This document shows positions 17,901 to 52,272 of a stretch of 64,000 nucleotides of DNA, piece after piece. The stretch is from Heterodera schachtii. Lineage: Eukaryota; Nematoda; Chromadorea; Rhabditida; Heteroderidae. The stretch is taken from positions 438,290-502,289 of the forward strand of contig SIJG01000095.1 of assembly GCA_023374025.1 (NCBI GenBank), written 5' to 3'. Under the pieces are notes generated by a model. That model saw only the letters and a list, made by a program, of their open reading frames with translations, ran no database searches and was not told the origin of the DNA. Within the stretch, counting starts at the first letter, position 1; every line of letters starts with the position of its first letter. Both the position numbers and the translations under genes were made by a program.

Positions 17901-18699
17901 ACATCAATTCTTTTTTGTAAATTTTAGATCCTTTTTTAGGTTTAATTTTATTTAAATTTATTCTATGGTTTTAATAATTTATTCATCACATTAATATTTT
18001 ATATCTATTTTAATTCCACCATAAATTTATTTGCATTATAACATTTTTATTAGATGCATTGTTTAGTTAAATTTGACAAATAAAAACTAATTTAAGAAAT
18101 AATGTAAGAAATAAAAAACAATTTTTATAAATTGGATAAGTACTCCGGCAAATTATATGATATTTGATTTTACATTTAATTTTTTTTTAATTTGAATTTT
18201 TTTCAGTTTTGAAATTGTTTTTCAATGTCTTTTTTTTGTTATTTTTTATTCTTTATAATTCTATGAATTTTTATATGTTTTTGTTTTTTTAATTAATTTA
18301 ATTTAAAAAAAATATTACACTTCTATTTTGGTTTAATGCTGACAGCAGAATAAATGTATTAAGCCATGTCCTGTAGACGAAATGATAAAGCTTCTGCGTT
18401 GATTAAATTTTTAAATTTTTAAATGTATTTTTATGTCTGGAAAATTGTTATTTAAATAAATATATTAATGATGTGAATATTTATCTTTACTTGCAATTTT
18501 AAATAAATTTAAAGATGTATAATATTTTATTTTGCTTATCTTTTTGGCTCCCCCCCGCCCCTTATTTTGCTTCTGAACTTCCAACCGTTTTTATTTATTT
18601 TTTCTCTTTTTACCTTAACTATAAATAATTTTTTTTAATAGTAGATTTTTGGCAAGTAAATTAATTAGAAATAATAATTATGCTATTGACTTATTATTT
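14962..18699. repeat. 3.74-kb tandem repeat, unit 1
   Basis: The next 3.74 kb repeats this block with a constant offset of 3738 bp and, by eye, differences only in homopolymer lengths near the end. Inside are a 67-codon hydrophobic plus-strand frame (15800-16003), a GC-rich hairpin, and a 30-codon frame behind a TTGTTCAG acceptor-like site (17810-17899). None has a recognisable product and I do not call them genes. Identity this high means either a very recent duplication or two assembled copies of one locus. Confidence 0.9.
16107..16142. repeat. Hairpin with 12-bp stem, AAAATAGGGGCG / CGCCCCTATTTT
   Basis: A perfect 12-bp inverted repeat with a 12-nt loop lies in a locally GC-richer stretch of about 200 bp. 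It may be the end or core of a small transposable element that was duplicated with the 3.74-kb unit. Confidence 0.6.
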
Positions 18700-21600
18700 T
18701 TTTTATAAATAAAAAATTATTTTTTCAGTCCTTATTTTATCAAAAATAATTTTTAAACTTTTAAATTATGAAAGAATAAAATTGTTTATTTATTAGTTTT
18801 TTTATTCTTATCATCTTTCTTTTTCCAATTTATCTTGTTATTTATTAATGATGTAAATATTTATTTATTGGCATTTTATAAATATATCTAAAAGAAGTCT
18901 TCTTTTCTCGTTTTTGTTACATACTTGTAAATTTTAATGAGAATAAATTTTTGAACTAAATATTAAAATTTTGTTATATTATCTAATAAATATTTTTATA
19001 ATGTATTTCTTTTTTTGCTAGCTAAATTATGAACATATATAGGAATTTATAAAAAAAAAGAAATTAATTAATTTACCCATTTTAAAATTTCACACTTGAA
19101 ATAATTTTTATTTATTTTAAAATATTTCCATTTCACAAAATATTTAAATTAAATTACTCGATGAGAAAAATAATTTGTTTTTCAGTGTCTTTTTTTGGTT
19201 TGATATTTGTTTTAATTTATTAATTAATGAAATTTGTATGTTTTTGTATTTGTTTAATTAATTTATTTAAAGAAGATTTACTTTTTTAATTTAATATGTG
19301 ACGGGTAGAATAAATATATTAAGCCATGTCCTGCAGTTTGAGGTTTTATGCTTTAAAATTTTATTATAATAATAACTTTTTTCATTTTTTAAAATATGCT
19401 CTATTTAAAGTCAATTGTTTTTTTTTTAATTTTTCAATTAATCTAAAAGCATTTGTTTAAAAAAATTTGAATATAGATTCATTCTGTATTCTGATTAGTA
19501 TTTATTATCCTTATTTATTAATTTATCTTATTTTTTAGTGATACAACGAATAATTTGTTTTTTATTAATAATTATTAGTAATTTTATAATTTTTATTTTT
19601 TGCTATATTTTGATAATTATCAATTTCTCAATTATTGTATACCCATTTAAATCTCGTTTTTACATTGTTTTCTTCCAATTTCTTTTAATTTATTTGGTTA
19701 TGTATTACAAAGCCCCTGTTTTTGGGTTTTTTATGACCTAAAACCTACCTTTTTTGGTGATTTTTAGAGCCTAATAATTGCACCCCTAATGGTTTTATAG
19801 TTATTTAAGTAATGATTAAAATTTCAAAACGCGAAATTGAAGAAAAAATAGGGGCGAAGCGACAAAAACGCCCCTATTTTCTAGGCGAAAAAATCTGTCT
19901 TGAAAAATACAAAGTTCCAGTTACGGATCAAAAATAACGGGAAACACTGGACTAAAAAGGCAAATGGAATTATGTTCACCAAAAATGTTAAATTGAATTA
20001 TTCTTAACTTTATAAACCTACAAAGAAAAATTCGATCTTAGGTATTTTTTTGGATATAAAAAACCAAAAACTATTTTATATTAATATTAGTTCTAATATT
20101 TCTTATATAATCTTTGCTTTCTTTTTTATTTTTTTGATTTAGCTGGCTATTTGATCTATTTTATCAAAAATATTTAAAAGTTTTAAATTATAGACGAATA
20201 ATTGTTCATTTAGTTTTTTTTTCACTTTTATATGATTGTATTTATTGGAATTGATTGAAAAAACGGAATTTTGGGGACTTGTCGTGTAAATTCGCATAAT
20301 CAATTAATTAAAAAATTAAATGTTGAATTGATAGAATTTAATTTAATGTTTTTGTTAAATATATATTGAAGCTCTGCTTCCATTTGTCATCTTTTTAAAT
20401 AGTTTTCTCTGATACTTATTTTCTTATATATTTTTTAAATTAAGTAATAATTTCAAGATATTTTAATAATTTGTGGATGTATTAGTCACCATTATGCATG
20501 CTTTAATAAGGTAATAATATTTATTAATTTTATATTATAAATATTTAAAAAAATAAAATCGAAGAATTTTCTTTTCATTGTCGAATTGCTTTTTTGTTCA
20601 ATACATTTTTCAAATAATTTTCTTACCCTTTTCGAGTTGCTTTAACGTTTTATTGCACTCATATAAATTGGTTGCATACGATTGAATTTGCGGCTCCAAG
20701 ACGACAATTTTGATTTGAAATATTTATTCATGATGGTTTGTTATTGTTTGTCTTCTTGGATCAAGTGCATTTCTTATTACTTATCGGTTTTTAGTAAATA
20801 TAATTTTGTTATATTTTATCTTTTTAATATTTTTTAGAAATAAAATGAACACTAATTATTAATTCATAGTTTTTTAGAATTTTATTATTTTCTTTACAAT
20901 TTAAATATTAGAGCAAGGTTTTTAAGTGTTAAATACAGAATTAGGTACTAAATAGTTCCCAAAAAAGTGAAAAATAGGTGTTAAAATGCGCAAAAATACA
21001 CAAAAAATTTTTTTTACAAATCCCCCAAAATTGCTCCTAATTTATTTTTTTTAATATCTCTCATAGGTATAATATATTTTTTTGGGGATTAAAAAATTCA
21101 GTAGAAATTTTTTTTTATTAAAGTTTTTATTTTAATCATTTTGCTTTTTTACTCTTCCTTTTACTACAATAATTTTCGCTTCCGGTTCCTCCTTAAGATT
21201 TTTTCGTTTTCCCAATACACACACAGAACAGCAAATTACTTTTTATAAATTAAAAAATTTTCAAACACAGCAAATAAATAGAGAATGTTAAGAAATTTAC
21301 CAATAAAAAAAATTCATTTTTTTTTTGTGGCGTAAAGTGAAAAAGTACCATCGCTTAATGGTTTATTAAAGATACAAATTTTAATTTTGGCGCAAATTTA
21401 GTTAATAATATTTTCTCGAAAATTCTTTTGTATTATATTTATGTTCAAAAAATGTGAATTTATTTTGGTTTGATTAGTAGACAAAAATTAATTTGGGTAA
21501 ATATATAAAAATATTGCATTTTCTTAATTTCAATTTTTCTTGTTCAGTTGATCACTAAGTTCCTGGCTGCGGCGGTTGAATTGTGCATCTGTTTTCTCAC

Positions 21601-22437
21601 TTTTTCACTATTATCAGTTAATGTTGAATATAATTAGCACATCAATTCTTTTTTGTAAATTTTAGATCCTTTTTTAGGTTTAATTTTATTTAAATTTATT
21701 CTATGGTTTTAATAATTTATTCATCACATTAATATTTTATATCTATTTTAATTCCACCATAAATTTATTTGCATTATAACATTTTTATTAGATGCATTGT
21801 TTAGTTAAATTTGACAAATAAAAACTAATTTAAGAAATAATGTAAGAAATAAAAAACAATTTTTATAAATTGGATAAGTACTCCGGCAAATTATATGATA
21901 TTTGATTTTACATTTAATTTTTTTTAATTTGAATTTTTTTCAGTTTTGAAATTGTTTTTCAATGTCTTTTTTTTGTTATTTTTTATTCTTTATAATTCTA
22001 TGAATTTTTATATGTTTTTGTTTTTTTAATTAATTTAATTTAAAAAAAATATTACACTTCTATTTTGGTTTAATGCTGACAGCAGAATAAATGTATTAAG
22101 CCATGTCCTGTAGACGAAATGATAAAGCTTCTGCGTTGATTAAATTTTTAAATTTTTAAATGTATTTTTATGTCTGGAAAATTGTTATTTAAATAAATAT
22201 ATTAATGATGTGAATATTTATCTTTACTTGCAATTTTAAATAAATTTAAAGATGTATAATATTTTATTTTGCTTATCTTTTTGGCTCCCCCCCCGCCCCT
22301 TATTTTGCTTCTGAACTTCCAACCGTTTTTATTTATTTTTTCTCTTTTTACCTTAACTATAAATAATTTTTTTTTAATAGTAGATTTTTGGCAAGTAAAT
22401 TAATTAGAAATAATAATTATGCTATTGACTTATTATT
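18700..22437. repeat. 3.74-kb tandem repeat, unit 2
   Basis: Near-perfect second copy of the preceding 3.74 kb. The same 67-codon frame recurs at 19538-19741 with an identical product, and the TTGTTCAG-preceded frame recurs at 21548-21637. Differences are confined to a few T, C or A runs, such as the C run near 22.29 kb. Confidence 0.9.
19845..19880. repeat. Second copy of the 12-bp-stem hairpin
   Basis: Identical to the hairpin 3738 bp upstream. It was carried by the tandem duplication and is not an independent insertion. Confidence 0.6.
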
Positions 22438-22715
22438 TTTTTTATAAATAAAAAGATTATTTTTTCAAGACTTATTTTATCAAAAATGATTTTTAAACTT
22501 TTAAATTATGAACGAATAATTGTTTATTTATTAGTTTTTTTCATTCTTATCTTCTTATTTTTTCCTATTTATTTTGTTATTTATATATGATATATAAATT
22601 TTTTTTAAATTTATTGGCATTTTATAAATATATTTAAAAAAAGTCGTTTTTTCTCGTTTTTGTTACTTGTAAATTTTAATGAGAATAAATTTTTGAACGA
22701 AATATTAAAGTTCAA
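22438..22715. repeat. Diverged partial third copy closing the 3.74-kb array
   Basis: It resembles the first 280 bp of the unit (TTTATCAAAAATGATTTTTA, TTAATGAGAATAAATTTTTG) with substitutions such as CAAGACTTATT for CAGTCCTTATT. Similarity fades after about 22.71 kb. The diverged outer copies and identical inner copies fit repeated unequal exchange. Confidence 0.65.
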
Positions 22716-34927: not shown

Positions 34928-35598
34928 GCCCCTCCCCCCCTAAAAATTCAAAAAGAATGAATTTTTTACGACACAAATGTCGAAATTCTCGTAAAATCAA
35001 AAATTTGATTTTAGCATTAAAATGATGTAAAAGGGGGTGATAAGGGGATGGTGTGACTGATCGATTTCCCTCCCGTGTTTGTTTGTTTTTTAATCCCTTC
35101 TCCGCCCGTTCCACATCCTGTTCCTCCCCAAATTTCCCTCCGCCGCAAATTGCCCAACTTTTTTCCTCCGCAATCGCGACTGTGCGAAATTGGCCGCCCA
35201 TTTTTTCCCCCAATAAAAAATCGTTTGTTCGCCAATTTTGCCCCCTCCAAAGTACTTTGCTCCCCCAATTTGTAGTGATCGGCCCATTTTAATTGTAAAT
35301 TTAACAATTTCACTTTTGGCCCCATTTTTTATCTCTTTCCCTATTCCATATTTAAATGGCCCCCAAATCACTCCCAATTCACATTCACTTCGCTTCTACG
35401 GGCAATCAATGCCTATCCCTTTGCCCGTTCTTTCTCTCTCTCTCTCTCCCTTTGCCCATGCCTTGGACCATTTTTGCCCATTCTTTTCCTGGTCCCTTTC
35501 TCTGTCCAATTGTGATACAGTACCCCTCCTGGTCCCTCATTGGCATCCCCCGGTTTCTCTCTTTGGCACTGTCCCGGGTTTTCTCGCATTTCTGTGAT

Positions 35599-35696
35599 TG
35601 TCCCCCCGGTGACGGCCCCTCTTTCTGTGATCAATCCCAATTTCTGTGATGACCATTTGTCCATTAATTGTGATCATTTGTCCCCCCGGTGATGGC
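35599..35696 (+). promoter_or_regulatory. Direct repeats in U3, possible promoter elements
   Basis: TGTCCCCCCGGTGACGGC and TGTCCCCCCGGTGATGGC are repeated 80 bp apart, about 140 and 60 bp upstream of SL1, with several TTTCTGTGAT copies around them. Repeated motifs in this position are typical of LTR enhancers. The nearer copy sits where a proximal sequence element would lie if the SL1-like sequence were transcribed like an SL RNA gene. That reading is inference. Confidence 0.4.
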
Positions 35697-35739
35697 ACAT
35701 TTCATTTTTATTTTTTGTATTTTTCACATTTAAATATGC

Positions 35740-35761
35740 GGTTTAATTACCCAAGTTTGAG
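35740..35761 (+). promoter_or_regulatory. Perfect nematode SL1 spliced-leader sequence inside the 5' LTR
   Basis: All 22 bases of the conserved nematode SL1 leader are present in sense orientation (starting GGTTTAATTACCC, ending GTTTGAG). A chance match of 22 bases is not credible. The bases after it are AGTTGAG and not the GTAAC-type donor of a functional SL RNA, although a GT lies one base further on. ATTTAAATATGC precedes it as a TATA-like stretch. It probably marks the 5' end of the element's RNA, either by transcription start or through an SL1 captured from a trans-spliced transcript or an SL RNA gene. Confidence 0.9.
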
Positions 35762-35768
35762 AGTTGAG

Positions 35769-35774
35769 AATAAA
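35769..35774 (+). terminator. LTR poly(A) signal AATAAA (5' copy)
   Basis: It lies seven bases after the SL1 sequence. In the 5' LTR it must be bypassed or be too close to the RNA start to work; its counterpart in the 3' LTR would end the transcript. Confidence 0.6.
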
Positions 35775-35872
35775 TATTTTTTTGAAATTGTGTTTGTGAT
35801 CGTCCATTGCGCCCCGACCCACCAACCGAGCCCGACCATCCCCTGACCGGACCCCGTGGCACTACCTTGTGC

Positions 35873-35897
35873 AAATTTTTGTGGAGGTTCCTCCACA
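35873..35897 (+). promoter_or_regulatory. Sm-like AAATTTTTG followed by terminal perfect hairpin at the LTR end
   Basis: AAATTTTTG is followed directly by TGTGGAGGTTCCTCCACA, an 8-bp perfect inverted repeat that ends exactly at the LTR boundary. Nematode SL RNAs carry, after the 22-nt leader, an Sm site of this kind and a 3' stem-loop. The same order is seen here, with about 110 nt between leader and Sm-like site. The hairpin could also simply be an integrase or reverse-transcription feature of the LTR end. Confidence 0.5.
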
Positions 35898-35899
35898 AG

Positions 35900-35918
35900 T
35901 GGCGCTCCTGGGTGGATT
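35900..35918 (+). promoter_or_regulatory. Primer binding site for minus-strand synthesis
   Basis: TGGCGCTCCTGGGTGGATT starts two bases after the LTR. It begins with TGG, the complement of a tRNA CCA end. Its reverse complement fits a tRNA 3' end: T-loop AAT, T-stem CCACC, acceptor CAGGAGC, discriminator G, CCA. A discriminator G fits for example tRNA-Asn or some tRNA-Arg; the isotype is not settled. Confidence 0.8.
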
Positions 35919-36403: not shown

Positions 36404-39400
36404 ATGGCAAGCCTGATCCAGAAGGGCATCACATTCACACTCAAAGCGCTGGATAGTGCCAGAACGACCACGGCACTTTCACTACATCCAGACGCCGACC
36501 TCTCAAACTGGGAAAATGCAGTCAAATTGGAGTCTCAATGCACTCGCGTCATCAGAGAAGTCCAAACAATGGAAGCACAACTGGACAATCTCCGCGATCT
36601 CTCCAACAATTGGATTGACCTGCTAAACCGCCTCGAAGGATCAGAAAAGGACAAAGGCGAAAAGGAATACATCAAATTCGACACGCATGAAAAAATTGCC
36701 GAACGCCATGACGCAGCCACAACCAAACTCCGGGATCTGAGGGATCTCGAAACTAAACTCAGTGCCGATGCCAAACTGTGCCGAGGCAGAGCAGAAAGAG
36801 AAGCGAGGGCGGATCAGCAGGCAAATCCACCACCACAAACAGCAACGCCACCAATGGCAGCTCCGACATTCACGGCACCGCTCTATCAATTCCAGCCAAT
36901 CCAGCTGGACAAATTCTTCGGCCAAAAGCAAAAGTGGCCTGAATTCTACGAGTCCTTCAAATCGGCTATCGGCAGCCAATCAATCAGCAAAGCACAGAAG
37001 CTGAACTTGCTCCGCAATCTTCTGGGCGGAGAAGCGCGGGAACTCATTGCTGGGTTCCGCCTGGAGGACCAAAACTACGAGACGGTCCTCCAGCTGCTGA
37101 AGGACACTTACGGCGCCCCTGAAGAGCACATCAGGGCGCTACACTTTGAGCTCGCCAATCTCAAGACGTGCCGAAGTCTCCGAGACACAAAAGACTTTCT
37201 GCTTCAGCTCGAACGACTGACAAGAGAGCTGAACAACGCCGGAGAGGACATCGAGGGACCGCAGGTGTTCCTCATGTTGGAGAAAAAGCTGACTCCAGCA
37301 TTCCTACGCAACATCCTCAACAAAAAGGGAGAGGATCCGGCAAATTGGACAACAACAAAATTCCGGGACGTGCTTAACGAAGCAGTCCGCAAGGAAGTCC
37401 AAATTCAAGAGGTGATGGGTGAGTACGGACACCACCATCAGCCACTCAATCGGCCAGCAAGGCCGCAAGCACATCAGGCTCAGAGAGCACGCATTCCGAC
37501 AGCAAATTTCCGGAACAGAAATGCATCTCCTGCCAATCGGGAACGCACCTTCATGTCCTCAACAATTGAGGAGGTTCAGCAGCGAATGAACCACAGGCCG
37601 CAACTGCGGAAGTCCCAACAGAAGGGACCAAGGCCAACTCAAGCGCCTTACAACGTGCCAATCCGGAATGACACAGCACAAGCAGGGTCAAGGAATCCGC
37701 CTTCACCCTGCATCTTCTGCAATGGCACTCACTGGAATGAGAAATGCCAGAAACTCAGTACCGTTCAGCAACGGTCAGCCTTTATTCGAGAAAAAGGCTT
37801 GTGCTTCAAGTGCTTGAAAGCAAATCATCGGGCAAACGAATGCCCCCGGCCAGCGAAATGCTACAAATGCAAACGGTCGCACCCACCAGCACTTTGCCAC
37901 GAAGGCAACAACGCAATGGCACAACATGCAGCCGCCGTCGTTACCGAACGACCCCAAGGCGAAAGTGGATCAGAATCCACGAATCAAACAGCACAACTGT
38001 GCAACGCTGTCCAAAGCAAGGACACGCGAGCGCTGTTAATGACAGCGAGGGCCACGATTTACAATCCGGCACAACCATGCCTCAGCATGAGAGCAACAGT
38101 GTTCATAGACCCGGGAAGCCACCGGTCATTCGTCTCATGCAACACAGCCAAACAGTTGGAACTGACCAACCTTGGAACGGAGGAATGCTTCCTCACGAGC
38201 TTTGGCGAGCAAGAGCCAAAGAGATACGTAAGCGACCGCGTCGCTATCGGCTTTCTGTGTCCCGACGGGGACCGATTCATCTTCAACCTGAACGCACTGA
38301 AGTTCTTGTTGAACAAATTGCCAGTCCTGCAACTCAATGCAATGGACAACATGCAGCTTCAACAGAAGAAGCTTTACATACCCCATGAGTCGAGACAGCC
38401 CGACGTCATGCTGGGTATGGACGTGTGGCACGAACTGCAGGTGCAGCCAGTCGAACGACTGCCAAGCGGCTTCACGATTTGTCAATCGAAAATTGGCAAA
38501 ATCATCAGCGGATCCGGACGGATTGAACTCAGTCAACCGTCCAACGTCACATTCGTCGTCACAGTGACGGACGAAAATGTCTTCACCACAGAGGAAGACT
38601 TGAAAGCCGACGATGAACTCAACAAGTTCTACGGCTTAAACATCATCGGCATGGATGATTCATCATCACCGATCGACCACGACGAAGTCATGAAAAACTT
38701 CAAGCGAAATCTGTCGTTCGTCAACGACCGATACCAAATCGCATTGCCGTGGAATGACAAAGTGGCACAGTTGCCAACGAATTATCATCAGGCAAAAGCA
38801 CGGCTAATAAGCCTCGTCCGAAAGCTGCGGACAATCAACTTGGTCAACGAGTACCAAGTCATCTTGGATGAACAACTGCAGAATGGCATCATCGAAATGG
38901 CCAATCCAGACCATTCCTGCGGACCAGTGCATTATCTGCCACACAGGGCAGTAATCCGCACCGACAAAGCCACAACGAAGATTCGGATCGTGATGGATGC
39001 CTCAGCAAAGCCCAAGTCCACTCCATCGGCACCATCACTCAATGAGTGCCTGCACACAGGTCCGTTACTGCTCAAGGACTTGACCGGCATTCTGCTCCGC
39101 TTCCGTCAAATGGAAAAAGTCGTACTTGCCGACATTGAAAAGGCATTCCTGCAACTGGGAGTCCGAGAGCAAGACAGAGACGCCACGCGATTCCTTTGGT
39201 TGGCAAATCCAAAGGAGGCAAATCTCGACCAACTCAGAAGAGAAGACATCCACATTCTCCGGTTCTGCCGAGTCAGCTTCGGCTTGACCGTGTCGCCCTT
39301 TCTTCTAAATGCCACAATACGTGAACACATGGCACTCTACGACACAGATGTGGCACAACGGATAAGCAACAATCTCTACGTGGACAACATCATGATGGAA

Positions 39401-41005
39401 GTGAAGCCGGGCGAAAACATCCGAGAAATTGCCACAGAGGCAAAAAACATCTTCGAGTCCGCCGGCATGCGGATTCGTGAATTCTACGGGAGCCACATCG
39501 AAGAGCTGAAAGAGCTCGACTCCTCAGACCTGGCCAACGAATTGGAAGACACAAAAGTGTTGGGCATCAAGTGGAAGCCAAAACCCGACCAACTCATTTT
39601 CTCCATGCCACACTTCGACAGCCCAATCACCAAGCGAAACATCCTTTCGCACATTGCCAAAGTGTATGACCCACTGGGGCTCATTTCACCGGCACTTCTG
39701 CCAGCAAAACACTTCCTTCAAATCGTCCAAAACGCAAACTACAAATGGGACGACCCTTTGGCAGAGGATTTGAAATTGATGTGGACAAAACTGATGCATG
39801 CGTGGAACGGATTTGGATTCAACTCACGCGTCGAATTCCCACGCCGAATCATTGCTGGAATAAGCGAAGAGTTCCACTGCTTTTGTGATGCCAGCAAATC
39901 TGGCCTTGGCATCGCGTTGTACCTGGTCGCAGAAACGCATTACAACAAACGGGAAAGCAATTTGATCTTCGGCAAAAGCCACGTGAAGCCACTCAAGGTC
40001 GCAGATCACGATGCGACCATACCCAAATTGGAGCTCCAGGCGCTCACTTTGGGAGTCAAGGCTACCAAGTTCGTCCAAACACAGCTCAACTTTGCCGACA
40101 GCCAAGTCATTTTGTGGACGGACAGCCAATGCTCGATTGAGCGGTTGAAGGAAAATCGCACGCACGACAGATTCGTAGCCAATCGGCTAAAAAAGATAAG
40201 AGAGGCGAACTTCAAAGTCCGACACATCCGAACAGCTGAGAATCCAGCTGACATCGCCTCACGCGGCACAGACCCGCAAAGCCTCCAAGCATCATTGCTT
40301 TGGCGATTTGGGCCAGTCTGGCTCACCAAAACGCACAAGTGGCCAGAAACGAACGTCACTTACACTCCCGGAGAAGAAACACGGGAAGTGACTGAGCCAC
40401 CAATCGTCGAGTGGAGTGCAACAGTCCAAGAAGAGCAAAAGTTCATTCCGTCAATCCAATTTGAACGGTTTTCAAATTGGAACCGGCTAAAGGCGGCAGC
40501 CGCCTATGCCACTCGCTTCAGCTTTGGCACTTCTTCAAAAAAGAAATGCCGCTCCTGCGAACAATTCGCTTCTACATCAGCAAGAAAGACAAATTGGACT
40601 GCTAACGGCAAACGAATTGGAAAATGCCGAAACATGGATTTTGTTGGAAACCCAACGGCTTCACTCGCCCACAGAAACAGTCACCAACAACCTGAAGTTG
40701 TTCAGCTCGAGCTCCATCGAGCCACTGAGATGCCAAGGGCGATTGGAAAACGCCGATCTGCCCAACGAAAGCAAGCACCCGACCTTTTTGCCGGCGGAAG
40801 CCTGGATCACCAAGCTCATCGTTATCCACTACGATCGAGCTCTGAAGCACTGCGGCCCACGGACGCTTCTCTCAAAACTCCGAGAGAAGTATTGGATACC
40901 AAAAGGCCGACAGACAGTCCAGCACATCCTCAACTCCAACAAATTTGGATGCTTGAGATGCAGACGGGAGAGACTCAAGCCATACGCTTACCCGGACGCT
41001 CCTGA
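36404..41005 (+). CDS. Gag-Pol first frame: capsid, zinc knuckles, protease, RT, RNase H
   Basis: The frame is 1533 codons with a good start context (CCCACAATGG). Residues 1-160 are helical and charged. About 165-245 is a DUF1759-like capsid block ([19 protein letters not shown]). Three CCHC knuckles lie at about 436-498 (CIFC, CFKC, CYKC). The protease has [11 protein letters not shown] near 569, so Pro replaces the usual Ser/Thr after the catalytic Asp. RT carries LADIEKAF (Asp about 910) and YVDN (about 992-995) in place of YVDD. RNase H shows [20 protein letters not shown] and NPADIASRG (about 1162-1283). Homology stops near residue 1370; the remaining 160 codons are the wrong frame running under integrase. 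Integrase is reached only through a +1 frame change. Family-level identity is firm; activity is not known. Confidence 0.93.
40491..40610 (+). other. Zone of the +1 frame change between RNase H and integrase
   Basis: The second frame opens at 40491, just after a TAA at 40488-40490, and the first frame loses BEL/Pao-like sequence near 40520-40545. An A6 run (40537-40542) and a C-T-rich stretch lie here. The change needs one base skipped (+1). It could be programmed frameshifting or a single-base insertion. The duplications elsewhere in the window show homopolymer length differences, so an assembly error in the A6 run is also possible. Confidence 0.6.
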
Positions 41006-44000
41006 CTTGCCAAAGGAGCGAGTCACGGAAACCCGCCCATTCAATCATGCCGGAGTTGACTACTTCGGACCGCTGAAAGTCAAGCAAGGCGCCACAACTG
41101 TGAAAGTGTATGTGGCACTTTTCACATGCCTCGTCATCAGAGCGATTCATCTCGAGGTAGCCGAGGACTACTCAGCTGAAGCATTTCTGAGAGCCTTCCG
41201 GCGATTTGCCGCACGGCGCGGCATCCCAAGTTTGATGATGTCCGACCAAGGGACGAATTTCATCGCCGGCGCCAAGACGATCCAAGAACATTGGACATCG
41301 CAATTGTTCCCAAATGAAATCCGAGAACATTTGGCACACCAAGGAGTCACATGGCTCTTCAACACGGCACACGCACCTTGGCGAGGTGGTGCCTGGGAAC
41401 GACTTGTTGGCATAACCAAAAATGCCTTACGACGAAGCATCGGTCGAAATCTCCTCACGTGGGAGGAATTCTGCACACTCACCGTTGAGATTGAAACGAT
41501 CGTCAATTATCGGCCATTGACATTCGAGTCGGACCGTGAACCGAGCCCCGTCATTCGACCAATCGATTTTCTGATTCCGTACTGGCCTGCGGAAACGAAT
41601 TTCCCAGTGATTGATGTGGATCCAGAGGATCCTGAGTACACGCCAACTCCAAACAAGCTGACGGAAATGCTGCATAAAACGGACGCAAAACTCACCCGTT
41701 TTTGGGACCTGTGGAGATCAGAATATCTCCTATCGCTGCGCGAACGGCCAAGTCTAAACCAAAGCCACGGAGCACACATGCCCCAAGAAGGGGATGTGGT
41801 GTTGGTCGAGGAGGACGGCACTCCTCGATCCGTCTGGGCAACGGCCCGAATTCTTAAGCTTCAGAGGGGACGAGACGGGGAAACTCGTTCAGCCCTCATT
41901 TTGCTTAACGGAAAAGAAAAATGGAGGGCAACAAACCAACTTTTTCCAATGGAAGTTCAATCCGAAATTCCAGAGACTCAACTCATCGCATTCATCATGG
42001 ACATCGACATGGACACAGTTTCACTGCCCGGAAGCGAAGATGAAGCCTCAGAGCAACCGGCACCCAGATTTAAAATTCCAAAGAAGCGCCGCGCCTTCTT
42101 GCGACCGATCGGTCAACAGCACAGCCCTTTGCAAGGGCCACGTCGAAAAAAGATGGAACTCGGCGACTCCGGACTCCGCAAACTCTTTGCGGCAATCAGC
42201 GAAGAGCAAGGCGGCAGCAAGGCCACGACAAACGCGATAACGGAGAGCCGCGAAATGGAAAAGGCCCCGGAGCACATCAGAAAGGAGCACGACAAGGAAA
42301 TGGCCAGAAAACAAAGAGAAAAAGTTCAACGAATTCCAACGGAGGAAATCAGGCGGAAATTGGCCGCCCTCCCACACATCACGGTTTCTTCGGAGGATGC
42401 CGAAACACAGAAAAAAGAGCGAAAGGAAAACGAAGAGCGTCGCAAAAGCAAGCAGCAATCCACAAGCGAAGGATGGAAACAACTCGCCAAGCAACGGGAT
42501 TCCGACTTGATGGATCAGCCTGATGAACCAGCCTTGGAACGACGAAAGGCTACTAAAGAATCGGTAAAAGAAAGAGAAGCGGAACGGCGTCAAATTGAAC
42601 GGATGAAAAGCATCATACAAATGAAGAAGCGTGCAAAACCGCTGAAGTTTCCCACCGAAGGGGAAACCTTGCTGAACTACGTGCAGCGGTTTTACGACAA
42701 GGATAATTGGGTGTTATCCTGGAAAAGCCGACGTATTCTGGACGAGCTCCATGACCTGGAAAACGAAGGACGTTGGTTCTTGTACCACGCAGCAAATGGC
42801 GCTCAACTCACTATATCAAGAACGTTCGACGGGACACGACCATTTGCCGCATTTCGATATGTGGAAGAAGGACACCTCGTGGATCTGACTCCAAGCCAAG
42901 TCCTCTTCCGCCAGGCAATCCCGGACGAGCCAGAAGAGAGTCCAGCGAGCAACAAAAAAGTGGAGGAGAAGGCGGAAAAACCGGCACGCAACGACAAACG
43001 AACGACTCCGGCCACTCGGAGAGTGGAGGAGTACTGCACGGCGGAGATGAAGCCGAACAGCTACTGCTACGACATATTCGAGCCGTGCGACGCGACGCAC
43101 GAAACGTGTGCCAAGTCGGCTACGTACAGCGCCCTTGCCGAAAACAGGCACAAGCTCGAAGAGTTCAACAACTGCCATGCCAGCTGCCTCTTTGAGGCCC
43201 TCATCTTCAGCTGGTTGACAAGGAACACAAATCTGCCTGGCAACGAAGTGTCAACACTGCACGAAGAGCTGATCAAGCCCACCTCAGAATTGGAAGAGGT
43301 GGCCCAACAATTCCACGACGAGCAGATCGTGAAGAACAAACGCGGACTTGGCAAGGACCAGCAAGTGATGAAAGTCATTGAAATCTGGAGAAATTCCTGC
43401 GATCGCTTCGGAGAGCTGTTCAACAAACCAGCGATGCAGCAGATCAAATTCCGGCCAATCCTGACTGAGCGAAATGGCCAGTATGACCAATGGATCAACC
43501 GCCAAAATACGCGAGTGGCAGAATTGTTCTCCAAAATGCGAACAAAGGTTCAGCATCCGACCTACTTGAGCTACAACTGCACAACGGTGATCGTCGGCGA
43601 TAACGTGGCGGAGCTCTTCACCCCACTATTTGCTGACGCCAAATGGTTCACGCATTTCCCAGCGGACACATGCCGACTGATCCCAGGGCCGAACGTCAAG
43701 CACATCATCATGGGATACCAAGCCACGGACGAAAACATGGCGGCGCAGTTGGCGCCGATGATCCACAAACTGGCCAAAACGGAAATCCAAACGACTTTGA
43801 TCATTGGCAAGGAGGACAACGCCAAATGGATCATGAACAAGAAGCACCTCTTTGATGTTTGCCGCCAGCTGAAAGCTGGATTCATCGTGTTCAATCGCGA
43901 GATGGGAGAAGCACGACGAATCTCAGAGCGGATAAAACAACGAATGGAAGAGCCTATGGAAATCGACAACGAAACAGTGCCTTCCACTTCAAGCGCTGCC

Positions 44001-46373
44001 TCAAGCAGCCGAGCATCCAGGGCCTCCATGGCCTCAAGTAGTGTCATCACACTGATGCTGCTAAGTCTTCTTGGTCTTCTTCTTGTGCCATCCGTCTCTG
44101 CAGCTCCGCTGCGAATACACCGAGCAAGCCTGTCGCTAACGGCACAAAATTACTTGAAGGCAATGCATAACTACTACAACACACTCACAACGGCAAACTC
44201 AACTGATACCACGACAGCTACGACTTTGCCATGGACAAGCACATCAAATTGGCCAATTTCGACTTTGCCGACACTCACAACGACGATGGCCACACGTACA
44301 ACACCACCATGGACCACGACGACGACTCAGCGAACAACCCTTGCAACGAGAGCAAGGGCACGAATCCAGTACGTCACCAGGGCGAGAACGCAGACCACGG
44401 AAGAGCCAACAACACGCCCCAGGCCCGTCAAATCATCCAAACGAGACCTCGGGACCAACAGAGAAGGCCATGACGCCTTCTGGTGCTCAGATCGCGGAAG
44501 CACGATTTGGGAACTCAAGGGCACCGAAAATTCACCTTTTTGCCGTCCCCCGCCGTCACTCACTGCTCAATGGCACAACCTGGCAATTGAGCTCTTCGCA
44601 AAAGTCATCAAGCCCGAGCAGATCACCTTTGCATGGCATTGCTCCGTAAAGCGCACTACGGAGCGCTATTATACCAACCTTTTGGCCGATAAGTTCGTCA
44701 CCATCGAGAAGGAGTTTCCACCGGTCAACAAGCGGATCTGCAAGCAAATGGCCATTCACCAGGAATGTCCATTCGCCAAGTCTGAAATGGCGAACCACGA
44801 AGGACAGCTATGGTCAACGAACGACGAGTTGGAAGTCAACTTTCCCGGACCAATCGCCGGACTTTTCAAAGGCGAACAAAGCAGCACGGCGACCAACTGC
44901 TTTACTCAACCAGCGACTCTGTTCGTCAAACGGCACAACTTGCAAATGCTCTCGCCGGTCCATCAAGTTCAAAACTGCCAATACGCCATGGAATTCTGCC
45001 AGCTGCCCGACAACACGACTCTGATTTGGAAATCAACCTGCAATGGCAATGAATGCAAAACATGCGACTACGAGAAGGCGGAAATCATCAACGGAAAATT
45101 CACTGCGGCCTACGGCGAATCAATGGCAACTTGGATCTCCGAGGATCACCAAAAGGCACTGACGTTCGCCAAAAACGCGCCAGAACTCATCGCCTGCGAT
45201 GGCACACGCATCGTCATGTCCGAACAGAATTTCGGTATCGCCAAGGATCAGTACGACGACATTGTCAGCACCACAACAAGATGGAAAAGAGGCATCCGTC
45301 CAGAGCAGCTCGCATCGCAGCTCTCGGCATCACAGGTGGCAACAAGCGTTGCGTTGAACCAGCTCTACACAAGGGAATGCCAGAGAAACACGAGAGCAGC
45401 CAACCCAACTCTCCAGGCCAGACGCTTACTACGACAACCAAACGTCCAAGCGCGATGGATCGGAGAAACGACAATGGAAGTGTTTCCATGCGTCAATGTT
45501 TCGCTCCAGGACATCTCCTACCGGCCAATGAACGAATGCCGTGTCTACATCCCAGTGACTGTGCACTTCCCCGACAGAGCCATAGCAGCATTCCTGGATC
45601 CCGAATTGCGCATCATTTCTTTGACGGCGCAATTGGCAAGCTGCAACAATCACCGTTTCCATCATCTTCAACTGCGAAGCAACCCGAACATTTGGCTACT
45701 GATCGACTCACGAACCGGGATTGCACGCCAAATGCCAAAGGACTACACCCATGAGCTGTACGAAACGACACTCAACCAGTCCAACAGCAACATCGAGCTT
45801 CACCCTCTGATCTTCCATGCTTGGCAGCTGGACAACGAATCAGACGCGACACGTTTCCCACACATCAACGAGTTCGTCAACTTGGAGCAGTTCAAGGAAA
45901 AGTTGGAACAACACATCACGGCGAGAACCGAGGCGTTAGGTGCCCTAAAAGGTGGCATCGAAGGACTGACCATGCGCTGGCTGAAAAGCATGATCGACGA
46001 AGTCATCACGTGGTGGATCCGAATCGCCTGTGTCTACTCAACCTTCTTGTTCCTGCGCGACATCTTTCTCCCATGCGCACTCGCCTACTTGTTCAACCCT
46101 GTTCGGGTCACACTTCTCAGTTTAATGGGAGTTCGACGTCAGCCGCTTCAACCAATGCTCGGCAAAACGCTACGACAGGAGGAAATGCCGCTTCGAGAAG
46201 TTCTCCGATCACCACAGCCACGCACTTCACCGCACCGTTCTCTGTCACCCGTCCACCTGGACGTGATCGCTCGCAATGCCCGTTACCAACAAACTCGAGC
46301 GCAAAGCGATGCAAATCTGGCAGAAGACGACACCCCGTTCGGACGACGGACGCGACGAAGAGAGGAGCACTGA
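40506..46373 (+). CDS. Second frame: integrase, uncharacterised region, envelope-like glycoprotein
   Basis: The frame is 1955 codons long and its first ATG is probably not a real start. H2C2 zinc region about 109-152 ([12 protein letters not shown]). Integrase core D185 (VDYFGP), D247 (SDQGTNF) and E298 (GGAWERLVG). A DUF5641-like tail lies at about 399-484 ([13 protein letters not shown]). Residues 485-1174 match nothing I know: a K/E/R-rich probable coiled coil (about 525-708), a compact block (709-805), a Cys-rich stretch and an alpha/beta-looking block (about 1020-1150). A signal peptide follows at 1175-1199, then a Ser/Thr-rich stretch, ectodomain, TM segment (about 1830-1866) and a basic tail. 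Integrase and envelope share one frame with no stop, which is unusual for an element with env. Confidence 0.9.
44028..46373 (+). CDS. Envelope-like glycoprotein, possibly started at its own ATG (781 codons)
   Basis: An in-frame ATG in CCATGG context opens directly into a classic signal peptide: MASSS, a Leu-rich core and VSA/APL as likely cleavage site. Next comes a Thr/Ser/Pro-rich mucin-like segment, then a Cys-containing ectodomain with several N-X-S/T sites (for example NSTD, NTTL, NVSL, NESD). RWKRG about 418 residues in is a furin-type site that would split it into two subunits. A transmembrane stretch near the C-terminus is followed by a roughly 90-residue Arg-rich tail. Architecture supports a membrane-fusion protein of viral type. 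I cannot place it among known lineages (phlebovirus-like, gB-like and chuvirus-like have all been found in BEL/Pao elements). It lies in the same frame as integrase, so a spliced or trans-spliced mRNA would be needed for separate expression. Confidence 0.7.
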   Translation: MASSSVITLMLLSLLGLLLVPSVSAAPLRIHRASLSLTAQNYLKAMHNYYNTLTTANSTDTTTATTLPWTSTSNWPISTLPTLTTTMATRTTPPWTTTTTQRTTLATRARARIQYVTRARTQTTEEPTTRPRPVKSSKRDLGTNREGHDAFWCSDRGSTIWELKGTENSPFCRPPPSLTAQWHNLAIELFAKVIKPEQITFAWHCSVKRTTERYYTNLLADKFVTIEKEFPPVNKRICKQMAIHQECPFAKSEMANHEGQLWSTNDELEVNFPGPIAGLFKGEQSSTATNCFTQPATLFVKRHNLQMLSPVHQVQNCQYAMEFCQLPDNTTLIWKSTCNGNECKTCDYEKAEIINGKFTAAYGESMATWISEDHQKALTFAKNAPELIACDGTRIVMSEQNFGIAKDQYDDIVSTTTRWKRGIRPEQLASQLSASQVATSVALNQLYTRECQRNTRAANPTLQARRLLRQPNVQARWIGETTMEVFPCVNVSLQDISYRPMNECRVYIPVTVHFPDRAIAAFLDPELRIISLTAQLASCNNHRFHHLQLRSNPNIWLLIDSRTGIARQMPKDYTHELYETTLNQSNSNIELHPLIFHAWQLDNESDATRFPHINEFVNLEQFKEKLEQHITARTEALGALKGGIEGLTMRWLKSMIDEVITWWIRIACVYSTFLFLRDIFLPCALAYLFNPVRVTLLSLMGVRRQPLQPMLGKTLRQEEMPLREVLRSPQPRTSPHRSLSPVHLDVIARNARYQQTRAQSDANLAEDDTPFGRRTRRREEH

Positions 46374-46466
46374 GAACCACGAGGATCAAGGAACAGATGA
46401 GCCCACCGAGAAGGAACAGATGAGCCCCCACGAGAACGAATGATGGATGAGCCCTTGCCTCGGGAA
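46374..46466 (+). repeat. 3' untranslated tract with three GATGAGCCC repeats; weak polypurine tract
   Basis: GAACAGATGAGCCC occurs at 46391 and 46414, and GGATGAGCCC at 46445. The bases next to the LTR (TTGCCTCGGGAA) make a poor polypurine tract for plus-strand priming; a better purine run (GAGAAGGAACAGA) is 45 bp upstream. The repeats may have displaced the tract, or priming may occur upstream. Confidence 0.6.
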
Positions 46467-47232
46467 TGTCGAAATTCTCGTAAAATCAAAAATTTGATTT
46501 TAGCATTAAAATGATGTAAAAGGGGGTGATAAGGGGATGGTGTGACTGATCGATTTCCCTCCCGTGTTTGTTTGTTTTTTAATCCCTTCTCCGCCCGTTC
46601 CACATCCTGTTCCTCCCCAAATTTCCCTCCGCCGCAAATTGCCCAACTTTTTTCCTCCGCAATCGCAACTGTGCGAAACTGGCCGCCCATTTTCTCCCCC
46701 AATAAAAAATCGTTTGTTCGCCAATTGTGCCCCCTCCAAAGTACTTTGCTCCCCCAATTTGTAGTGATCGGCCCATTTTAATTGTAAATTTAACAATTTC
46801 ACTTTTGGCCCCATTTTTTATCTCTTTCCCTATTCCATATTTAAATGGCCCCCAAATCACTCCCAATTCACATTCACTTCGCTTCTATGGGCAATCAATG
46901 CCTATCCCTTTGCCCGTTCTCTCTCTCTCTCTCTCTCTCTCCCTTTGCCCATGCCTTGGATCACTTCTGCCCATTCGTTTCCTGGTCCCTTTCTCTGTCC
47001 AATTGTGATACAGTACCCATCCTGGTCCCTCATTGGCATTCCCCGGTTTCTCTCTTTGGCACTGTCCCGGTGAATCCCGCATTTCTGTGATTGTCCCCCC
47101 GGTGACGGCCCCTCTTTCTGTGATCAATTCCAATTTCTGTGATGACCATTTGTCCATTAATTGTGATCATTTGTCCCCCCGGTGATGGCACATTTCATTT
47201 TTATTTTTTGTATTTTTCACATTTAAATATGT

Positions 47233-47253
47233 GGTTTAATTACCCAGTTTGAG
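47233..47253 (+). promoter_or_regulatory. SL1 sequence in the 3' LTR, one A deleted
   Basis: Same position as in the 5' LTR, but CCCAAG has become CCCAG, leaving 21 of 22 bases. The upstream base before GG is T where the 5' copy has C. The loss probably happened after integration, or reflects a sequencing slip. Confidence 0.85.
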
Positions 47254-47260
47254 AGTTGAG

Positions 47261-47266
47261 AATAAA
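47261..47266 (+). terminator. LTR poly(A) signal AATAAA (3' copy)
   Basis: Placed as in the 5' LTR, seven bases after the SL1-like sequence. The full-length RNA would end shortly after it, giving an R region of only about 50-60 nt if RNA starts at SL1. Confidence 0.65.
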
Positions 47267-47364
47267 TATTTTTTGAAATTGTGTTTGTGATCGTCCATTG
47301 CGCCCCGACCCACCAACCGAGCCCGACCATCCCCTGACCGGACCCAAGTGGCACTACCTTGTGC

Positions 47365-47389
47365 AAATTTTTGTGGAGGTTCCTCCACA
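47365..47389 (+). promoter_or_regulatory. Sm-like site and terminal hairpin, 3' LTR copy
   Basis: AAATTTTTG and the 18-base perfect inverted repeat are unchanged from the 5' LTR, although the bases just before them differ (GACCCAAGTGG for GACCCCGTGG). Confidence 0.5.
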
Positions 47390-47778
47390 CTTATTATTTC
47401 CTGATTAGAATTAAGGTACATTTGCTTCATGAGTCGCAAGACTGTTCATTTTTGCTAAAAAAGTTTACAAAACTTTTATGCCTTTTTGGTTATTTTGAAA
47501 AAAAATTATTTTGACATATTCTAATATAAAATTTTTAATATTTATTTTACAACGAATGCTAATTGGTTTTCTGGTTAATTCATATATAATTGATTATTCA
47601 AATATCCAATTGATGTTAATGTAATTTTTTTTCATCTCAATTAAAATTGTTTACACATATTTTCACCCGATTAAAATTATCAATCTATTCGAATTAATGT
47701 TTTGTTTATAAAGTTAAAACATTAAATATAGATTTCATAATTTTATTTCTTTTAAGATGATTTCATTATTTAATAAAA

Positions 47779-49190
47779 TTAATCGCTGCGCGCGATGACT
47801 TGGACATTCGGCCGTTGCCCAGGCCGCTGAAGCACAGAAAAGAGTGGCGTCCACTGCAAATGTCCACACTGATTAATTACCATGCCACATTTCCGAAGAC
47901 CAACCCGAATCATTCGTCGGTAACAAATATGTTTAAAAAAATTTTTCTTAAAATAAATTTTGTCTATACTTTTTAATTAAAAATTTACATTAATTTTTAA
48001 TTCAATTTATTTAATTTTTAATTTCATATTTAAAAAAAAAACAAATTTAATCAAACTATTATTACTTTTATCGTGCATCCGGGGGTGTTGTCTTACAATT
48101 AGACCTTCATTGAGTCAATTTTGGTTGACAGACATTTGTATAGTTTTTAAATTGTCAGGTCGAGTAAAAAAATTATTATTAATTAAAGCATTCATTAATA
48201 ATAAAAATATAATTTAAAATATTTTTTTTCCAAATTGTTTGCAAAAATCCTCTAATTTAGGAAGTAAACTGTTTAAAAATATTTAAAATTTTTGATTTTT
48301 TTACAATCCTTTCTTTAATTTAGGCCCTGCTGCACCATTACAGCCGTGGCCATTACTTTCGCCACGTACATTTTTCCGCTATTTTATTCCGTTTGTCCAC
48401 TGCCACCTTTGCGCCGCAATTTTTGACCGTACAGTGATCAGTAAATAATAAATAAATTTAAATTTATTTGAATTACATTTTAAAATTTAAAATTTTAATT
48501 CAAATTTAAAATTAAATAAAATATTTATTTAACATTAATTTTTCATTCTGTCAAAATTACTATTGTTATGACATTATTGTATTTTTTAATGTGATTTAAA
48601 TTTGAAAAAATTCAAAATATTTTAGAAAAAATTTATTTAGTTATTAAAGTCTCCATTGATTAAAAAAAAAAACTAATTTTTATTAGATTAATGGCCCAGT
48701 TTTGCTGTGTCTGTTCAATTGCAAAGGTGTCAAATCTGTCACTTGGATTCAAAATGTGTTCACTGTGGCCTAAATTGTGCACATTGTGTCAGATCATTGG
48801 CACTGGCGTTGTTCTGCTGACCTACGAACACAAAAAATTTTTAAATTTATTTTGAGATTTAATTCATAAAATAAAATTCATTTCTAATAAATTTATTTGT
48901 CCATTGTAAGGCCAAAAAACCCAAAATTTTTGCACAAAAAACGACAGAGAAACATATTCCCATGCCATGTTGTAAGAGTGGAAATAATATAGATGGTACC
49001 CCATTTTTAATAAATATTTTTGGGTTTTAAAAAGTCGTGTATGCATGTTTCATGAGCTTATATGGGTCACTGATCACGAATCTAACATTCACCAGGTTCG
49101 TATTGACTCGGTACACTCGCTCGTCACAACGACCGGCAGCACAACGCAAATGGCAAATGCAAATTGTCTTCAGCCATTTAATTTTATTAG
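47779..49190 (-). other. Exon-like GC-richer islands in unit A (candidate gene or pseudogene)
   Basis: Five islands at about 47784-47930, 48070-48150, 48325-48440, 48690-48830 and 49033-49180 stand out from 80% AT DNA. On the minus strand they read as normally composed protein: a 44-codon ATG frame at 47913-47779 (MIRVGLRKCGMVINQCGH), a Cys/Lys-rich segment (CTVKNCGAKVAVDKRNK) running into AAAGTAATG, a segment behind ACAATTTAG (HSEHILNPSDRFDTFAIEQ), and YRVNTNLVNVRFVISD at the right. Some islands are also open on the plus strand, so strand and joins are not settled. No family is recognised. The two units carry them unchanged. Confidence 0.3.
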
Positions 49191-50515
49191 AAATAAATGT
49201 TTTTATTATTTTTTTAAATATGAGATCATCATATGCTTAAATTAAATAAAATCATTAGTGTCTTATAATAATTAAATTGAGTAAAATATTTTTTAAATAA
49301 TTAATGTATCTTTGCTTTGTAGAATTTTCAACTTACAATTATTTAATGATAATTATGTGCACTTATCCAATTAAAATTTATAAGAAATTAGATTAATGTT
49401 TCGTTGACTAAAAAATATTAATAAATTTTTAGTTAAAGTACCAAATTAGAATTTTATGTTATTTAAGGTTTAATTTCTATTAACTAAAGACGAATATATA
49501 ACATTTTGTATATTATTTCGTTATATGTGCTTTTTAGTTATTTTCTTTAAATTTTCTTACTATTATGTATTAGTATTTTGATAATAACAATTCTCTTTTA
49601 TGCTTGAATGAAGTTTCTTTTAAATAAATGTTCGTTCAATTAAATTGTTTAATATTCGTTTTAATTACCCGTTAATATTTTTATTCTATTTTTATTTCAT
49701 TGATTCATTTAAAGAACTTTTATGATTCATAAATTATTTGTTTTATAAATATATCTTTTAATTTTTCCTTTTTTGTTCTGTTTTAAATATTGTCTGATCA
49801 ACAAGATTTCGCTATGTGTAAAAATTTTAATTTTTTGTCAATTAAATTAATAATATAATAAATATTTATGAATTTCTTTGATAAAAACACAAGTTCAGTA
49901 CAGCACCGCCTTTAGAACTTAAATTATTCCTGGCGTTTTAATTTTCATTATTAATGTTCTATTTTAATTTGATCTCAATTAAATTTAAAAATTATTCAAA
50001 TATATATTTTTGTATATTGTTTTGTTACGAAATAAGAAATAATTTTTTTTCCCTTTAAATTAGTAGAAATTTTTTAAATTTATTATGTATATAATTATTG
50101 ATTTTTAATATTGTATTAATTAATGAAAACTTTAATTATTTGAGTACTTTATTGTCTTGTATCTAGTCAGATATCATCATCATTCGGGGCTAATTCTTTC
50201 ATTTTAAAATATAATTATTTCTTTTATTCTTTCATTTTAAAATATAATTATTTCTTTTATTCTTTATAATTAATTTTTGTGTCTTTAATTGCTATTAATT
50301 TATTTTTTCAATAATTGTTTATAAAAATATAAAATGTTTATTTAATTATTTGAAAACTTTTTTTCTTGCATATAGTCAGCTGTTTTTTTGCTCAGGAATT
50401 ATGACTACTTAAAAAAATATTTTAAACATAATGATAATTTATTTCCTAGTGGCCAATTTTAATTGTAAAAATACAATAATGTTTAAGTGATTGATATTGC
50501 AATTAGCGTTTTTAA

Positions 50516-50635
50516 TTAACTTGCTTCCCATGTAAACTTTGGACCATTTTTAGTCACTTTATAATATAAGGTGAACATTTTTTTGCCTCGAGCTCGTCGC
50601 CTTAGTCTGTTGCGTCTTTGTTTCGAGGTGCACAT
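50516..50635 (-). CDS. Small basic frame in unit A, 39 codons, possible exon
   Basis: ATG to TAA on the minus strand with an Arg/Lys-rich first half (MCTSKQRRNRLRRRARGKKM) and a balanced second half (FTLYYKVTKNGPKFTWEAS). The block is identical in unit B although nearby sequence in this half of the units differs by several percent, which hints at constraint. It could be a small exon rather than a whole gene. No known family. Confidence 0.3.
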   Translation of the reverse strand: MCTSKQRRNRLRRRARGKKMFTLYYKVTKNGPKFTWEAS

Positions 50636-52272
50636 TATTTTAGATTATTTTTTGTTTTTAAGATAGATAAAAAAATTTATAGATATTTTTTATACTTTTT
50701 TAGTAATTAGTTTATTATTTACTATATCTAAAATTACTTAAATAAATGCAAAGCCTTTTTGTTCTTGATATTATTTTTATTTATAATTTTAGCTGTTTTT
50801 TACAGAAAATAATAGAATTCCTTTTTTTTATCTTTTCTTTCTTCTTTTCTTGAACGCTTCCACGCACTTAGTTCCGCAACAACTTGTAGTTTGAAATTTT
50901 TTTTTGATTTTATATATTTATAATCTTCTTTTATCAATTATATATAATATATTTTTATTTTTGCAAATTAGTAAATTATATTTTTTTTATTATTTTCATT
51001 TTATTTTGTGAGGGTTTCGTTTCTCATCATCTTCTTTCATTATATTGCTTGTTCAAGTTCCATTTACTATTTTTCCTAATATAATAAATTGTTACATTTT
51101 TAATTATAATTAAACCATAAGGTAAACATTAATTAATTAAAATTTAATTATATACAAGTTATTTTTAAAGAGTACAATATATAATTTATTTTTAAAGCGT
51201 ACACCCACGGTTTTATTAATTTCATATTTTGATAAAATATTTTATTAATAGAAAAGTAAATCAATATTTTAATTAGCGTTTGCTTGAATATTATGCAGTT
51301 TATAATTTTTATTTTCTCCATTTTTTCTTTTACTTTCATCGGCAATCGCGCTACAAATATTTTGAAAAATATTTATATAATTTTAACTAAAACATTTACA
51401 TTTTTCAGTTTTTATTATTTATTTCAGTATGTTTTAGTTTATTTCTTATGTTTTTTCACAATAAAAAGAAAAATTAATTTATTTTATAGGACATATTCTT
51501 ATTATATGAATTTGTCAAATATTTATAGGTTAAAAATCATATTTTGTCATATTATCTCCTGGCTACATACCTTACATTGGTTTTCCATCACGAATTTTGA
51601 ATTTACATTTTAACAAAACTATTATATTTTTTCGTATTTAGGGCGTTTTAGCTCAAATATTTTCATAATTTTTCACTTTTTTAGCACCTAAAATCTCTAT
51701 TACTCATTATATTGTTCATGTTTGGTAGTATTAAGCTTATTTGACAAATTTCCAACTTACAATTATTACTTAAATTATTTTTTAGTATTAAAAAATTTTG
51801 TAACAAATTTTGTTTTTTTATTTGAAAACAATTATTTTGATCACACATGTTATTTAAAATTTTTTATTTTTTCTTCAATTTGTTTATAGGTTATTTTTCA
51901 CTATATAAAAATTTTTGGTTATTTCTGATTAGAATTAAGGTACATTGCTTCATGAGTCGCAAGACTGTTATTTTCTAAAAATTAAAAACTTTATGCCTTT
52001 TTATTTCAAAAAAAAATTTTGACATATTCTATATAATTATTTTTTACAACGAAGTAATTGGTTTTCTGGTTAATTCATATATAATTGATTATTCAAATAT
52101 CCAATTGATGTTAATGTAATTTTTTTTCATCTCAATTAAAATTGTTTACACATATTTTCACCCGATTAAAATTATCAATCTATTCGAATTAATGTTTGTT
52201 TATAAAGTTAAAACATTAAATATAGATTTCATAATTTTATTTCTTTTAAGATGATTTCATTATTTAATAAAA

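Follow-up and report, generated by a model that had tools for sequence, protein, structure and literature searches.

Positions 35740–35761 (+) of the window, by which we mean the whole 64,000-nucleotide stretch of DNA analyzed, hold the nematode spliced leader SL1 inside the 5′ LTR of a retrotransposon. The locus raises the question of how a host RNA-processing tag came to lie within an LTR, and what it does there. The answer that we favor, and consider probable rather than assured, is that SL1 entered as a spliced exon, came to form the 5′-terminal 22 nt of R, and now enables elements to swap LTR modules.

The SL1-bearing element of the window

The element has the layout of BEL/Pao retrotransposons, with two LTRs bounded by TG...CA and a putative primer-binding site 3′ of the 5′ LTR. 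The 5′ LTR (34978–35897 (+), 920 bp) and the 3′ LTR (46467–47389 (+), 923 bp) are direct repeats that align over 34976–35897 and 46465–47389 with 97.1% identity, and the primer-binding-site-like sequence TGGCGCTCCTGGGTGGA lies after the 5′ LTR at 35900–35916 (+). A gag-pol ORF (36404–41005 (+)) with Pfam matches to DUF1759, RVT_1, and Peptidase_A17 overlaps a second long ORF (40506–46373 (+)), which matches DUF5641 and, slightly below cut-off (23.8 bits vs. 25.5), Integrase_H2C2; the 3′ part of this second ORF has no Pfam match. The presence of DUF1759, RVT_1, Peptidase_A17, and DUF5641, all Pao-type domains, supports the BEL/Pao assignment. No 4-bp match was found between the flanks of the window element (CAAA/CTTA) or, as a target-site duplication, between those of its relative C9; the 4-bp flanks of the relatives C19, C24, C39, and C76 match, and the duplication of the window element was possibly lost through later rearrangement. 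The unmatched flanks of the window element count against the explanation that we favor.

Other repeats lie nearby. A tandem 4.5-kb duplication (47394–51909 and 51919–56411, 96.9% identity) begins 5 bp past the 3′ LTR, and the window also contains a 4.0-kb repeat in overlapping tandem (14950–18970 and 18689–22712, 99.0% identity) and a minisatellite with a period of ~52 bp (57481–57869). An Rfam scan of the window at gathering thresholds gave no matches.

The SL1 of the 5′ LTR is complete (22/22, sense) and is the sole match with three or fewer substitutions in the window. With 0.01 matches expected there (dinucleotide shuffles) and reversed controls giving none genome-wide, a chance match was rejected; we regard its probability as negligible. 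The copy in the 3′ LTR (47233–47253 (+)) has 21 of the 22 bases and differs from SL1 by a one-base deletion, with no substitution. The 664 nt between 35740 and the gag start codon at 36404 hold no ATG, where dinucleotide frequencies predict 5.7 and base composition 9.9, and an ATG lies at 35736–35738, 2 nt before SL1. In all these points, namely the two copies of SL1, the ATG-free leader, and the ATG just upstream, the observations of a first-pass annotation of this DNA were correct.

On either side of SL1 are two candidate signals. TGTATT at 35716–35721 (+), −24 from SL1, is a possible TATA-like motif, and AATAAA at 35769–35774 (+), which starts 7 nt 3′ of SL1, is probably a poly(A) signal inside R. 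With the U3/R border placed at SL1, the U3 of the 5′ LTR would extend over 34978–35739 (+).

SL1 copies across the genome

A search of the 178.5-Mb genome (356 contigs) found 204 exact copies of SL1 and none of the reversed control pattern. SL1 RNA genes, recognized as GGTTT + 17 nt + GTACTTGGC, account for 44 of the 204, and because all 44 carry the same leader, the 22-mer in the window is the host's own. About 160 SL1s are therefore not SL RNA genes (the surroundings were examined for part of them). At 75 sites SL1 is followed by AATAAA, in all cases at a spacing of 5–13 nt in a search that permitted 0–30 nt, with none in the reversed control. A further 28 SL1 sites have a non-A base and ATAAA within 15 nt (at least one of them, C55, is LINE-like), and some others read SL1 + ATAAAA. 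The possibility that the window copy is a lone oddity was rejected, given SL1 at the same LTR place in genome matches, the 204 exact SL1s, and the 75 with AATAAA. A scan of IMG/VR for SL1 + AATAAA returned no stretches.

A search with the last 12 nt of SL1 gave 110 matches, 100 of them listed; among the matches listed, 20 sites without an exact SL1 were read, of which 13 keep all but the first base (one with an additional change) and 7 are more altered, indicating that the first base of SL1 is variable among sites. Family copies without SL1, which according to the first-pass annotation would speak against its reading, were not encountered among the copies examined, since SL1 is present at each of the 28 sites catalogued for the R-U5 group of the window, exactly in 23 and with one small change in 5. 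One further relative, L012, is broken inside SL1.

The LTRs that carry SL1 are diverse. The fetched loci contain 119 SL1 sites (≤3 edits), comprising 80 with AATAAA close by, 11 SL RNA genes, and 28 others. The 80 AATAAA sites and 13 sites picked by eye from the 28 others made up a set of 93 LTR-type sites, which fell into 15 U3 groups and 14 R-U5 groups in a rough clustering (BLAST of 120 nt on each side, single linkage). Similarity to the window proteins was found near sites of the U3 groups labeled U3, U6, U10, U12, and U14, in addition to the window's own U1; the remaining U3 groups showed no such similarity in the short flanks compared. At L068:3–803, an AAA_12 helicase piece with a zinc knuckle lies 0.4–1.2 kb before the SL1 of a U2-type LTR, and L050:2035–3021 (−) contains an envelope-like piece with a weak, sub-cut-off match to a Monjiviricetes fusion glycoprotein.

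Not every Pao element is associated with the leader. With a limit of 12 kb in place of the 1-kb distance rule of the Brugia malayi study, 12 of 109 peptidase-A17 loci have a same-strand SL1 (from a 131-site list, which is incomplete), on both sides in 8, and one has an SL1 on the opposite strand. Two more A17 loci (C118:391713 and C147:186399) are flanked by SL1-suffix sites, and the site read at each is without the first G. Because only these 12 + 2 loci are associated, on the incomplete list, SL1 is not known from at least 95 of the 109. This applies to most Pao copies of the genome and counts against the explanation that we favor.

LINE-like copies are also headed by SL1. The label "LINE-like" reflects layout and reading by eye, because Pfam gave no families for three LINE-like ORF pieces. 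At four of the seven loci searched, Rfam identified a U6 snRNA (RF00026) directly upstream of SL1 and a LINE-like ORF (L042:1385–1488 (+), L034:1525–1629 (−), L086:1080–1189 (+), and L031:1531–1623 (−)). U6-L1 chimeras are known in mammals, and by analogy these loci resemble U6-LINE template-jump chimeras. The existence of SL1-headed LINE-like copies thus indicates that SL1-headed RNAs do get reverse transcribed here. By eye, L131 has the U6-SL1-LINE-like arrangement too, with ~20 nt between. Elsewhere, at L041 (~1430–1500 (+)) and just upstream of the SL1 of L075 (−), a small-RNA-like stretch with a 3′ hairpin directly precedes the SL1 of LINE-like copies; it was likened by eye to the 3′ end of SL RNA or SmY and gave no Rfam match at the gathering threshold.

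The U3/R border and exchange of LTR modules

Several features of these LTRs suggest that SL1 is the 5′ end of R. Over 30 representatives, which are not fully independent, the observed and expected numbers of ATG were 104 and 182.5 in the 400 nt upstream of SL1, 8 and 49.9 from SL1 to +70, and 5 and 23.8 from +70 to +150. ATG depletion begins at SL1, which indirectly places the leader at the expected start of R. With one representative per U3 group, TGTATT occurs at −39 to −16 in 6 of the 15 groups (8 occurrences) and three times over all 15 groups at −400 to −41; it is missing at −39 to −16 in the other 9 groups, which counts against our explanation. Directly before SL1, C14:280884 is without 27 nt and C6:3571984 without 19 nt present in their sisters. 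The U3 side of the junction slides and the SL1 side stays fixed, an indirect sign that SL1 may start R.

Inverted repeats were sought in 26-nt windows at the U3 end. At p ≤ 0.05 (mononucleotide shuffles) they were found in 8 of 26 representatives, in one case not abutting SL1, whereas three control windows yielded 2, 1, and 2 of 26 (5/78 in total); the excess over controls of inverted repeats abutting SL1 is only suggestive. The repeats abutting SL1 differ in sequence across several U3 groups (e.g., GCGCTCATTTATATGAGCGC and TTTGCTCATTTATATGGGCAAA). The proposal of the first-pass annotation that the RNA begins at SL1 gains indirect support from the ATG depletion, the upstream TGTATT, and the fixed SL1 side of the junction. 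That annotation also suggested that the element may gain in cap type or translation; were transcription just to initiate at SL1, its RNA would have a cap other than that of SL RNA.

SL1 is also a point at which LTRs change partners. The window LTR has 43 genome matches, 12 of which begin at its base 765 or 766, base 765 being the first of SL1; because they begin there, these 12 share R-U5 and not U3. In ten elements with a primer-binding site, the first 1,200 bp inside the element are 95–98% identical over 99–100% (with the exception of C4, 44–45% covered), and in the same ten elements the U3s (350 bp) range from 95% identical down to no BLAST match and the R-U5s from 74 to 99%. The window-type U3 and a second U3 type are each paired with the agctgag, ctgagag, and gtccc R types. 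C49:832544 and C49:836761 agree at 397/400 positions in U3 and at 116/196 in R-U5. C28 is 97% identical to the window upstream, but downstream it is 84% identical to the window and 93–94% identical to C12 and C19; C127 and C325 are 56% identical upstream and 97% downstream. Identity profiles show that the shift falls at SL1 in the C49, C28, and C127 pairs. Unrelated U3s and different R-U5s, joined at SL1 in several combinations among near-identical leaders, are recombinants.

Breakpoints inside U3 occur as well, in C9 and C39. Given these, exchange is not confined to SL1, a further point against our explanation. C19 and C76 have the same chimeric LTR at both ends, 100% identical, with 4-bp flanks that match by eye, as expected if the chimera predates insertion. 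At C49 the downstream LTR is truncated, so the pair is not tied to one insertion; as the R-U5s of its two copies also differ, recombination in DNA is possible there.

Origin of the leader and relation to known systems

At LTR-type sites, unlike SL RNA genes, SL1 is not continued by the GTACTTGG... of SL RNA. What is present is an exact SL exon without the SL RNA intron, as in a retrocopy of a trans-spliced RNA. The first-pass annotation had proposed capture either from a trans-spliced RNA or from an SL RNA gene. The exact exon gives indirect support to the former. The alternative in which an SL RNA gene was captured along with its promoter, SL1 starting the gene just as it appears to start R, is disfavored because only the 22-nt exon is present, and reverse transcription of a trans-spliced RNA gives the exon only. 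A block found upstream of 9 of the 11 SL RNA genes read was not found when one representative of each U3 group was compared, only scattered 7-mers of the SL RNA upstream regions being shared, and we consider capture of the gene very improbable.

Possible relics of repeated trans-splicing are found at the 3′ end of the leader. SL1 holds two AGs, which end at bases 16 and 22. Re-trans-splicing at the internal AG (AG16) would leave SL1 + TTTGAG, and re-splicing at the terminal AG (AG22) would leave no trace. A search made without the first G found SL1 + TTTGAG at 17 genome sites, all 17 of which were read; by eye, 14 are LTR-type and 3 LINE-like (C1, C55, and C323), and the LTR-type sites span at least 8 R types, most of them with TTTGAG-free sisters. 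In C106, TTTGAG is present twice. The first 13 nt of SL1, used as a query, matched 84 times, at 75 exact SL1s (9 with TTTGAG), 8 near-SL1s that differ by one or two substitutions or by an indel of a single base, and 1 unrelated sequence; no multi-base insertion other than TTTGAG was found among these 83 SL1-like sites, in a search blind to changes in the prefix. SL1 is repeated in tandem in C20 and C5, and in degraded form in C10. Two points count against re-splicing and with it our explanation: TTTGAG may possibly have arisen by slippage between the two AGs, and CCCAAG in SL1 agrees poorly with the typical 3′ splice site of nematodes.

In the explanation that we favor, host SL1 would have been joined to the RNA of an ancestral element by trans-splicing, and reverse transcription would then have locked the exact exon into the U3/R border. 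Element RNA would now begin at SL1, either by transcription start at the first G or by re-splicing. In ordinary retroviral reverse transcription, strong-stop DNA terminates in the complement of the first bases of the RNA, and it has to anneal to the R that lies 3′ on the template. Minus-strand strong-stop DNA ending in the SL1 complement could prime on the SL1 of another element's 3′ LTR, with 22 bases at the primer end able to pair, and the outcome would be a U3 from the acceptor joined at SL1 to an R-U5 from the donor. The recombinants of this account are seen; its RNA start site, cap, and strand transfer are what we infer. A broader proposal, which we put forward tentatively and would stop short of calling probable, is that SL1 is a common R element through which the families of one genome share and recombine a single stock of U3 and R-U5 modules. 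Were this the case, any SL1-headed LTR retrotransposon could hand strong-stop DNA to any other, and the shared sequence would be hard for the host to change without losing trans-splicing.

SL1 might instead be kept only as a DNA start-site (promoter) element, with no trans-splicing today and with the TTTGAG repeats due to slippage. Initiation at SL1 fits the upstream TGTATT of 6 of the 15 U3 groups and the depletion of ATG from SL1 onward, and the position of TTTGAG between two AGs is one that slippage could generate. However, TTTGAG is the only multi-base insertion in the 83 SL1-like sites and recurs across at least 8 R types and LINE-like 5′ ends, tandem SL1s occur, and the arrival of an exact exon is left unexplained; we find this explanation rather unlikely. 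The chimeras themselves could have formed through recombination or gene conversion between integrated DNA copies, and not through strand transfer in reverse transcription. The two LTR-like copies at C49, with the same U3 and different R-U5s, are not what simple reverse transcription gives, and the breakpoints inside U3 point the same way. Set against this are the insertions C19 and C76, chimeric and fully identical at both ends with flanks that match by eye, and the fact that unrelated R-U5 groups have little beyond SL1 in common, and we judge DNA recombination to be an improbable source of the chimeras.

If the leader did enter as an exon and become part of R, a tag of host RNA processing would now serve both as a structural component of retrotransposon replication and as a promoter-trading point. 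This would account for the excess of SL1 over SL RNA genes here (204 vs. 44) and perhaps for that in Heterodera glycines (180 vs. 22; PMC6362198). It also calls for caution, in that a read ending in SL1 alone is no proof of trans-splicing where elements encode SL1. In the open-licence PMC literature, with subscription papers such as the early Ascaris Tas work outside this scope, we found no report of SL1 at the start of R, of LTR relics, or of exchange at SL1. That SL1 adjoins Pao elements is already known from Brugia malayi; the R position proposed here, the recurrence in many LTR types, and the module exchange appear to be new. The recurrence, the exchange at SL1, and the putative relics also go beyond the first-pass annotation.

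Half of the integral SL1s of Brugia malayi (60 of 120) have a PAO element within 1 kb, and the authors conclude that expressed elements acquired leaders, which then entered the genome along with them (PMC7181701). As there, SL1 lies here in sense near Pao-type elements, sometimes on both sides, in the window and at 12 of 109 A17 loci (12 kb). Unlike here, the available part of that account does not place SL1 in R or the LTR, and it mentions neither the spacing of a poly(A) signal nor relics nor an exchange of modules (PMC7181701). Brugia malayi is a filarial worm, whereas the genome studied here is tylenchid-like. In Heterodera glycines, according to the sections available, SL1 occurs at 180 loci, only 22 of them near an Sm motif; roughly one in three trans-spliced genes overlaps a repeat, LINE/CR1 being the most frequent of those annotated, and the most used leader is HgSL3, not SL1 (PMC6362198). 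The surplus of SL1 copies resembles that found here and is not linked to LTRs in those sections (PMC6362198).

For Cer1 of C. elegans, the accessible text describes a spliced 2.4-kb RNA found with SL1 and an 8-kb RNA not trans-spliced at that site (PMC3315495). Cer1 resembles the window element in being a nematode LTR element with an SL1-bearing RNA (predicted in the present case), and differs in being Gypsy/Ty3-related and in that SL1 in the LTR is not described in that text (PMC3315495). The dinoflagellate retrogenes DinoRL, as presented in the excerpts available, are host retrogenes and, unlike the elements here, involve no LTR and no strand transfer; they share the relic logic of the SL1 + TTTGAG proposal, with a relic leader that is without its first part and a new leader spliced inside the old (PMC12014239).
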